Origin: Edaphochlamys debaryana | Lineage: Eukaryota > Chlorophyta > Chlorophyceae > Chlamydomonadales | DNA: 64,000 nucleotides | Reading direction: 5' to 3' | Assembly (NCBI GenBank): GCA_016858145.1 | Contig: JAEHOE010000007.1 | Location: 1,364,001 to 1,428,000 of the forward strand | Shown here: positions 22,929-25,900 of the stretch, in pieces | How the letters are laid out: each line of letters begins with the position of its first letter | Position numbering within the stretch: the first letter of the stretch is position 1 | Position numbers and translations under genes: made by a program | Notes under the pieces: generated by a model | Told to the model about the DNA's origin: nothing | Database searches by the model: none | What the model saw: the letters and a program-made list of their open reading frames with translations, nothing else

Positions 22929-25900
22929 ATGGAGCGCGCGGGGTACGTCGTCAGCGCACGCCGTTTCGACTCTGCCGCGCACCCCTCTCTGTGCACCCTT
23001 GCCTTGTTACGCCCGACGGCGACGTGGATGGGAACAACATATTATCTAACTCCCGATATGATCGCCACCCTCAGGTCCCTGCCTCACGGCGGAGGCCAAG
23101 AGGCAAGCCCTCTGTCATGCCTTCGGGCCCTGTCGGAGCTCTCCTGCTCGGAGCACATGGTGCTACCGCCGGGATCAAATACCACGAGCCAGTTAGGCGG
23201 AAAGTACATCATCCGCAAGCGGATTGAGCTCTACAAGGGCAGGTGAGGTTTGGCATGCCAACCTGCCGGCCATCCCGCGTCAAGACACGCGTCAAGCTGT
23301 TCTGCTGGGGACGGCGCGTGTGCCAAGAATAGTGATTGGCAGGGGGTGCCATGCCTTGGCGGCATAGACAACTCCAGGTGGCTATGGGGGTTTCTTTGCG
23401 ACGGGGCGCTGGCGCGCAGCCACCGTTGCACCGGGCAACGCGATGACAAAGCGGCGACCCGTACCCGAGCCAGGAGGCAAATCTACTGAGGGCAACTCTG
23501 AGGACAATCCCTGAGCCGGGCGGCGTCCGAACGGGCAAACGGGGTTGCCCGACTACAGCCCGCGCAGGGCCCACCACCGCACGCCGCCTGCGCTGCCCGC
23601 GGCCCGCCTGCTGGCCCGCAAAGCACCGCTGGAAACCCCTAGGGCACAGAAGGGCTTCTCCACCCCCATCGCTTCATGCATGCACCCTGCGTGTCACGCC
23701 CGGTCGCCCGCTGCTGCTTGTGCCGCAAAGCTCAAGAGCTCAAAGCGAGCGCACGGCCCCGTCACCGAGACCGGCCGGCGTCCCACGCCCTCCCCGTAGA
23801 CCCCCAGAGACCCCCCACGCACCTCCTGCTTCCGGCCTTCCCCCTGCATCCGCCCTCACCAGGTCACCCCGCCTCCCGCCCTCCCTCACCTCCCACACCC
23901 CGCCCCACCCCATACCAACCGCGCCCCCACCCCCACCACCCCCGCCCCACCCCAGCGTGTCCACCGTCTACAAGTGCATGCTGGCCGACGGCACCCCGGT
24001 GGTGGTCAAGACCTACCACAAGGCCAAGATGGCGGAGAAGCACTTCCACAAGCTGGAGAGAGAGGTGCGGGAGCGGGAGAGAGGGGGCCTGCGACCGGGC
24101 GGCACCCTGGACTCCTGCATTCAGCCTCAGCCACCCGTTTGCTTTGCCGCCCCTGCGGAGGCTCAATGCCCCAACAACCTTCCAAGCTCCAGCCGCAACC
24201 CGCTTGCCCCCGCAGGTGGACGCCCAGCGGCTGCTGTGCCGCGCCGGCACCCCGGGCGTGGTGGGGCTGCTGGACTCGTTTGAGGACGGAGCGGCCATCT
24301 ACCTGGTCATGGAGTGCTGCGAGGGTGAGGGGGGTAGGGTAGGTCTGTCTGGTCATGGAGTGCTGCGAGGGTGAGGGGCGGGGCGGGAGGGGGAATGGGC
24401 TGAGGAGGGGGTCGGGGCACGAGGGGTTCGGAGTGGGGGGCCAAGCTCTCAGCGTGTGCCTCGAGGGCTGGACTGAGGGCGACAACGCTGGACACGTGTT
24501 GGCACCGACAGCCACCATGCTACCATGATTGCCTCCACCACTCACCTACATCCATGCACGTCCGCACCTGCCTGCCACAACCCCAGGCGGCGACCTGTTC
24601 AAGCGCCTGATGCTGCACGGCGGCAAGCTGCCCGAGCCCTGGGTGTGCTGCGAGGTGGTGGCGCCCCTGCTGCGCGTGCTGGGGCGCATGCACGCGGCGC
24701 GCGTCATGCACCGCGACATCAAGCCGGAGAACATCTTCATCACGGCCGAGGGGCAGGTCAAGCTGGGGGACTTTGGACTGGTGAGTGGGGTGTGCGAGGG
24801 GGAGGAGGGGAGGGCAGGAGGACTGGGCGCGGGCGTGATGGGGTACGCTAGGGGCCTGGGGTTCTGATTTAACCGCATATCCATTGTGCCTCCGTCCCCA
24901 GGCCATTGACTGGACGAAGGAGCTACCCTTCAGCCGCTCAGGCACGCTGGACTACATGGCACCGGGTGGGTGGCTTGGGGGGGACAAGGGGATGGACACC
25001 TTGCTCGTCATTTGTAGGCCCTTGCTTGCCGTTCAGAAACGTCCAACGCAACGCTACCCAAGTCGCGCTGACGACCCGCTTCCTCCCTGCCTCACCGCCG
25101 CACCCTCCCCCCGCAGAGGTGCTGGTCAACCCCGCCACCCACACGCAGGAGTCTGCGGCCGTGTCGCTGCAGCTGCTGGCGTCCAAGGGCATCCGCCCCT
25201 ACACCTGCGCGGTTGACGTGTGGGCCGTGGGCTGCCTGGCCTACGAGCTGGTGACGGGGCGGCCGCCGTTCGAGGTGGAGGACGAGAAGCAGACCGCCAG
25301 CCTCATCATTTACTCCAACAACATCAAGCTCAACATCCCCGGTACGAGTCCAGCCTGGTCGGATTTCGTGGCCCAGGCCCTGACGAAGGACCCGCGGCGG
25401 CGGCCGGACGCCGTGGCATTGCTTAGTCACCCCTGGGTACGCTCGCACTTGGCCGGGGAGACTCCTGCTGCGGTGTGGCCGGTGGCGGCAGCGTCGACGG
25501 CGGGGGCGGTGGTCGGGCTGTCGCCGCCGCACCACCCCAAGGCGGTGTCGAACCCGGACCAGCCCGCCGGCGCAATTGCAGCCGCGCTGCCGCCGCGGCC
25601 TGCCGCTGCCGCCGCCGCGGGCGCCCAGCTGCCGCGGGCTCCCTCCTCCGCCGGCAACAGCCGCGCCAGCAGCTACTGCGGCACGGCCGTGTCGGGCGGC
25701 AGTAGCATGGGCGGGACCAGCAGCGCCAGCGGTGCATCGAGCGGCGCCTTCGCCTCCGGCGCGAGCACCGGGGGCTCGAGCCTGGGCGGCGCGAGCGCTG
25801 CGTCCTCGGCCGCCGCCGGCCGCTCGGCGCCTGCGTCGCAGCCCAAGCCTGCCACAGCCACGGCTTCCACCACCGCAACAACGTCGCAGACGCAGGTGCT

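Follow-up and report, generated by a model that had tools for sequence, protein, structure and literature searches.

Introners make up whole introns. Among the families of these short, dispersed, splice-site-associated sequences in PMC9860276, TIRs are given for 72 of 177 and TSDs for 49 of 130, with flanking repeats of 3-9 bp. In the potato RdRp gene, a tandem duplication across an intron-exon border made a new intron in that single gene, according to the account in PMC4974935, where intron gain of the Rogers type (duplication of an exon segment containing AGGT) is likewise described as a short tandem duplication near splice signals. Polymerase-theta end joining produces duplications or nearby-templated insertions from break repair, the tandem duplications reported in PMC7368036 being 1 kb to 1 Mb in size.

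The repeat characterized here lies in a window of 64,000 nt (G000:C7:1364001-1428000, GC 69.2%) from a genome assembly of 141.9 Mb in 502 contigs. It is found at the 3' border of exon 3 of a protein kinase gene, with the following features:

24216..24324, + strand: kinase exon 3, ending in GAG G at the border (gene model; alignment with 7 relatives)
24303..24332, + strand: parent copy, the 22 last nt of exon 3 plus the donor, GTGAGGGG (exact repeat)
24333..24348, + strand: filler between the kinase copies, without the dispersed module described below
24349..24378, + strand: intronic copy, shift 46, 30/30 identical (exact repeat)
24587..24780, + strand: kinase exon 4, joined to exon 3 (gene model; alignment with relatives)

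An earlier note on this DNA had claimed an exact 28-bp duplication at this exon edge, with 22 exon bases and the donor recurring at an offset of 46 bp. Both claims were confirmed by sequence match, and the identity extends to 30 bp (24303-24332 and 24349-24378). The window contains the 28-mer twice, and when the repeat is widened to 35 nt (24298-24332 and 24344-24378, start-to-start distance 46) the match is still 94%. Local repeats scoring at least 16 were absent from five dinucleotide shuffles of the window, compared with eight in the real window. The intron starts at 24325 and is 262 nt long; the intronic copy begins 24 nt into it and the donor of the copy lies 46 nt in. The assembled protein matches Pfam Pkinase (PF00069, E-value: 2.9e-52), its closest database match is from Volvox africanus (77% identity), and no insertion was observed at the exon 3 junction in an alignment with 7 relatives (52-76% identity). 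Use of the distal donor (24371) would add 46 nt and shift the frame, as had been claimed, with translation of the model giving a premature stop after 184 codons. At L002 (G000:C10:1092914), which by eye looks like a paralogous kinase gene, the exon ends in an identical sequence, and the approximately 180 nt of its intron that were inspected hold no further copy of this edge.

This arrangement resembles the potato RdRp case in having closely spaced direct copies across an intron-exon border, but differs in that the copies lie inside an existing intron with no new intron evident, recur at many junctions and affect donors as well as acceptors. Similarly, in contrast to Rogers-type gain, the kinase copies do not bound a new intron, as the 262-nt intron ends elsewhere. 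In our judgement, the kinase repeat likely arose when a short stretch across the 3' border of exon 3 was duplicated locally, and it is one of a class present at about 3% of tested junctions. A duplication unit of approximately 46 bp would span the border, its copy having landed in the intron; as the outer donor would still yield the conserved protein, the change may have been near neutral and persisted. The G-rich tracts that follow donors and the C-rich tracts that precede acceptors are the probable sites of origin of such border duplications, through errors in copying or the repair of breaks. For the kinase case, an ordinary short tandem duplication with an intronic copy is enough.

Four further junctions in the window had been claimed to carry local duplications, two of them in MO25, the gene neighbouring the kinase (Pfam Mo25, E-value: 1.2e-96). 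All four are present, although those at 39189 and 53004 are short:

19283..19309, + strand: MO25 exon 4 edge and donor (parent; donor 19302)
19373..19399, + strand: intronic copy of the MO25 exon 4 edge, 26/27 identical
21328..21351, + strand: MO25 exon 7 edge and donor (parent; donor 21345)
21408..21431, + strand: intronic copy 1 of the MO25 exon 7 edge
21525..21541, + strand: intronic copy 2 (partial) of the MO25 exon 7 edge
39176..39215, - strand: last-exon acceptor of a minus-strand gene (parent; acceptor 39189)
39259..39298, - strand: intronic copy of the 39189 acceptor, 83 nt upstream
52969..53015, - strand: 21-nt tandem duplication across donor 53004 of exon 53005-53150, with 11 exon nt

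The MO25 exon 4 copy, at +90, consists of 20 exon nt with one mismatch followed by GTGGGGG, while copy 1 of exon 7, at +80, consists of 18 exon nt followed by GTGGGT, with the third, partial copy of that edge at 21525. The copy of the 39189 acceptor holds 11 exon nt and CCCCAG. Weaker copies were found at 5201 and 62422, with just 3 and 8 exon nt, respectively. The MO25 intron that holds the exon 4 copy also contains a dispersed repeat: the introns at window positions 2501-3847 and 19303-19893, which belong to different predicted genes, have 277 bp in common at 84% identity.

For a wider survey, a small gene finder was self-trained on the window and five 50-kb pieces (314 kb in total), giving 47 genes and 515 introns. 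The program fuses MO25 with the kinase, so its gene ends are unreliable, and exon borders were compared with relatives for the kinase only. Junctions were tested if the exon scored at least 15 and was at least 40 nt long and the intron was at least 120 nt long, a copy being a match scoring at least 14 within the first 300 nt of the intron from the border. Intronic copies were found at 28 of 875 junctions (12/433 donors and 16/442 acceptors), where permuted partners predict 0.10 donor and 0.00 acceptor copies. Exon-interior 38-mers had copies in 2/398 and 3/408 cases, the latter three being extensions of junction copies. With so few copies from exon interiors, it follows that the border has to be included in a copy, which is what tandem duplication requires; random templated insertion is disfavoured on the same ground.

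The 28 copies have spacings of 21-211 nt and exon parts of 3-57 nt. Polymerase-theta products are alike in kind, but the shift here lies below their size range and many junctions share a single recurring sequence. Among the stronger copies, the exon part is nearly identical with an abrupt edge, while the intron part often shares the splice consensus only, although by gapped alignment it was homologous at p≤0.05 in 10 of 26 copies tested, two more being too short. The kinase intron part gives p 0.34 in this alignment. Several near-perfect exon copies adjoin intron sequence without homology, one example being the copy of 57 nt with two mismatches at C2 20882 (p 0.955). Plain tandem duplication followed by substitutions would not by itself predict the missing intron homology in these copies and in the kinase, which counts against the local-duplication reading. 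At C5 45644 the exon edge is present three times, and the stretches of filler in between are similar.

Selection for decoys or regulated alternative splice sites could also preserve such copies, and GT or AG is indeed kept in 23 of the 28 (a hand count, in a search that favours such copies). We regard this as very improbable, as the spacing and exon length vary widely, the kinase distal donor leads to the premature stop and there is no frame bias, the spacing (with shifts counted by hand) being divisible by 3 in 9/28 copies (p=1.0). The same figure bears on the proposal that the two kinase donors compete: both are there in the sequence, but nothing suggests productive use of the distal one, and a spacing divisible by 3 is as frequent as chance allows. 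That the copies are artefacts of assembly is scarcely credible, since 28 copies of varied divergence and a dispersed module would be hard to misassemble.

The earlier note had also called for a genome-wide comparison of junction repeats with repeats at random positions; over the 314 kb, the comparison was with rotated annotation. When the annotation was rotated, leaving out copies beyond 150 nt, junction-spanning loci made up 14 of 48 duplication loci at score 16 (9.1 expected, P 0.058), 14 of 44 at score 18 (8.7 expected, P 0.036) and 13 of 35 at score 20 (8.0 expected, P 0.028). Junctions are thus enriched 1.5-1.6-fold over rotated annotation, but with P values of 0.03-0.06 and with no enrichment above intron interiors. 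Raw intron-interior windows had local copies in 10/298 and 9/307 cases (19/605), the same rate as junctions, many of them being simple G, C or AC runs. After filtering for complexity, the rates were 12/960 at junctions, 12/2832 at exon positions 50-120 nt from the border and 104/6668 at intron positions 50-180 nt from it, where positions are not independent and part of the rate must come from the copies themselves. By these filtered rates, borders are struck at much the same frequency as introns and at roughly three times the frequency of exon interiors. Overall, duplications are in modest excess at splice sites, and their loss from exons accounts for much of the pattern.

A reading compatible with local duplication is that duplications strike introns and borders alike, and that an exon-edge copy, whose parent is constrained, simply stays recognisable longer. 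It accords with the junction rate, which does not exceed that of intron interiors, with the small size of the rotation excess and with the intron parts of the duplications, 16 of the 26 tested being eroded, but leaves a shared module of fixed polarity (see below) unexplained; we judge its chances to be evenly balanced. Purging from exons, combined with a slower erosion of copies whose parent is under constraint, suffices for kinase-like copies. The recurrent process of border copying proposed in the earlier note is therefore upheld only in part: copies far exceed the 0.1 expected and a subset has the shared module between the copies, but the rate is not above that of intron interiors.

The module was recognised from an AC-rich motif, ACACACACG, which is found in the last 100 nt of 5/16 introns with acceptor copies compared with 6/433 other introns (p 1e-5) and stands between the copies at several acceptors. 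It is part of a module, M, of the approximate form CCCC[CG]ACGCGTCACGAAACACACACGC followed by a C tract, which is about 26 nt long and sometimes longer; its core was fixed by the search pattern and the preceding part is the majority consensus of 41 loci. The core pattern SAAACACACACGCYYYC has 178 matches in the genome compared with 1 for a reversed-pattern control, and a longer M pattern with at most two mismatches has 91 compared with 0. A 5'-truncated retroelement inserted by target priming would share its 3' end among loci and vary in its 5' truncation. The consensus over the 41 loci does fade past about 27 nt, but with a 60-nt query 8 of 51 matches, lying outside the source locus, start within its first 8 nt, some loci share a longer 5' part and the searches found no parent. 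Target duplications flanking the insert would also be expected; exon-edge copies flank M at part of the loci (see below).

Twenty loci were taken from the core-pattern list, 10 picked for clusters of M 88-132 bp apart and 10 singletons chosen by hand. At a 1% permutation threshold, 17/32 M loci have an upstream exon-edge copy: 10/10 in clusters (by construction), 2/10 singletons and 5/12 from the 314-kb sample. Exon-edge copies therefore flank M in 7/22 loci not chosen for clustering. A systematic set was formed from every fourth of the 91 entries (23), minus two already sampled and the last, leaving 20. In this set, copies flank M in 6/20 loci with scores above every null score, compared with the 28/875 for junctions in general (p 5e-5), and by eye the C-rich end of M faces the splice site in 20/20. 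Of 40 loci, 37 could be scored with a coding model (L054, L055 and L058, without the exact core, were dropped). An exon edge was found 8-95 nt 3' of M in 35/37 loci (15 acceptors and 20 donors) compared with 69/200 random pieces not matched for C tracts (p 2e-12), while on the 5' side the figures were 7/37 and 58/200 (p 0.23). Acceptors bear forward M and donors its reverse complement. This mirror orientation means that, at loci with a copy, the C-rich strand has the same order at both ends: tract, splice site, exon-edge copy, M, tract, splice site, exon edge. At some two-copy loci, read by eye, M is absent upstream of the first copy.

M between copies is unexplained by random tandem duplication alone, and the copies that bear it hint that a short constant sequence was inserted, the target being duplicated over a long stretch and the splice site thereby regenerated. 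We tentatively suggest, at somewhat less than even chances, that an undescribed, minimal inserted sequence of about 26 nt enters beside C/G tracts at the edges of exons with fixed polarity, duplicating a target of very roughly 60-105 bp. It would in this way rebuild a splice site and make introns longer, and the exon-edge copies that remain would be inert. With similar reserve, the module may act alike at donors and acceptors because it is the C-rich strand that is read, and not the direction of transcription. Such insertion might be primed on the G-rich strand, or it might come from a repair or template-switching event that passes back through the C tract.

Whether the kinase copy could itself be a module-free or eroded product of dedicated insertion, with M entering beside C/G tracts and its target being duplicated, is another matter. 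The pattern counts, the position of the 3' exon edge, the excess of flanking copies, the mirrored arrangement and the two-copy loci lacking M before the first copy all speak for insertion. Even so, M stands between the copies in none of the seven window copies, the kinase filler included, and 29 of 42 M loci not picked for clustering lack a significant exon-edge copy. In addition, M is a mere part of the unit in some tandem arrays, the random pieces being unmatched weakens the polarity comparison, and no parent element or enzyme was found in the searches made. We consider this origin of the kinase copy unlikely. Because its filler lacks the module, membership of the kinase copy in the module process is a conjecture, as is any common origin with the module-bearing copies; local duplication across the border is the reading we retain for it.

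The searches on M gave, as the best of eight M loci against known RNA families, 24.3 bits compared with a cut-off of 77; a reverse transcriptase search scored 150 matches of 712 candidates. A full-text literature search for GAAACACACACGC returned no match, and no description of M was seen in a limited survey of the literature on volvocine algae, introners, splice sites and tandem duplication. Two further models were rejected. For a foreign exon copied along with M, the sequence upstream of M in two copy-less loci matched itself only. For the introner TIR model, 15 introns had M on the acceptor side and 16 on the donor side (at most two mismatches), and none was in both lists. M is like the introners in being short, dispersed and tied to splice sites, but it covers one intron end and comes with a long flanking duplication. 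When the 515 introns were compared, whole-intron matches were seen only in nearby duplicated genes and tandem arrays, other matches being of ends or fragments.

Intron lengthening and splice-site renewal are, in our judgement, little documented. Recurrent, tagged exon-edge duplication would provide datable events and a direct way to follow how introns grow in a long-introned alga, and might also give rise to spurious splice junctions when RNA-seq reads are aligned.

Several repeats of other kinds were observed. L036 (G000:C20:51200-52300) and L031 (G000:C2:3105200-3105900) are tandem arrays with units of about 100-120 bp, each unit holding M and an exon-like edge, and can be described as module-bearing minisatellites. 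L013 (G000:C2:330309-332042 and 335813-337110) consists of 234-bp and 233-bp tandem arrays that were modelled as repeated exons and introns. Finally, 15 predicted introns match pairwise between G000:C3:326705-333451 and 337935-344682 (L017-L019), about 11.2 kb apart, 14 of them at 100% and one at 98.6%, which corresponds to a very recent duplication of one or more genes.
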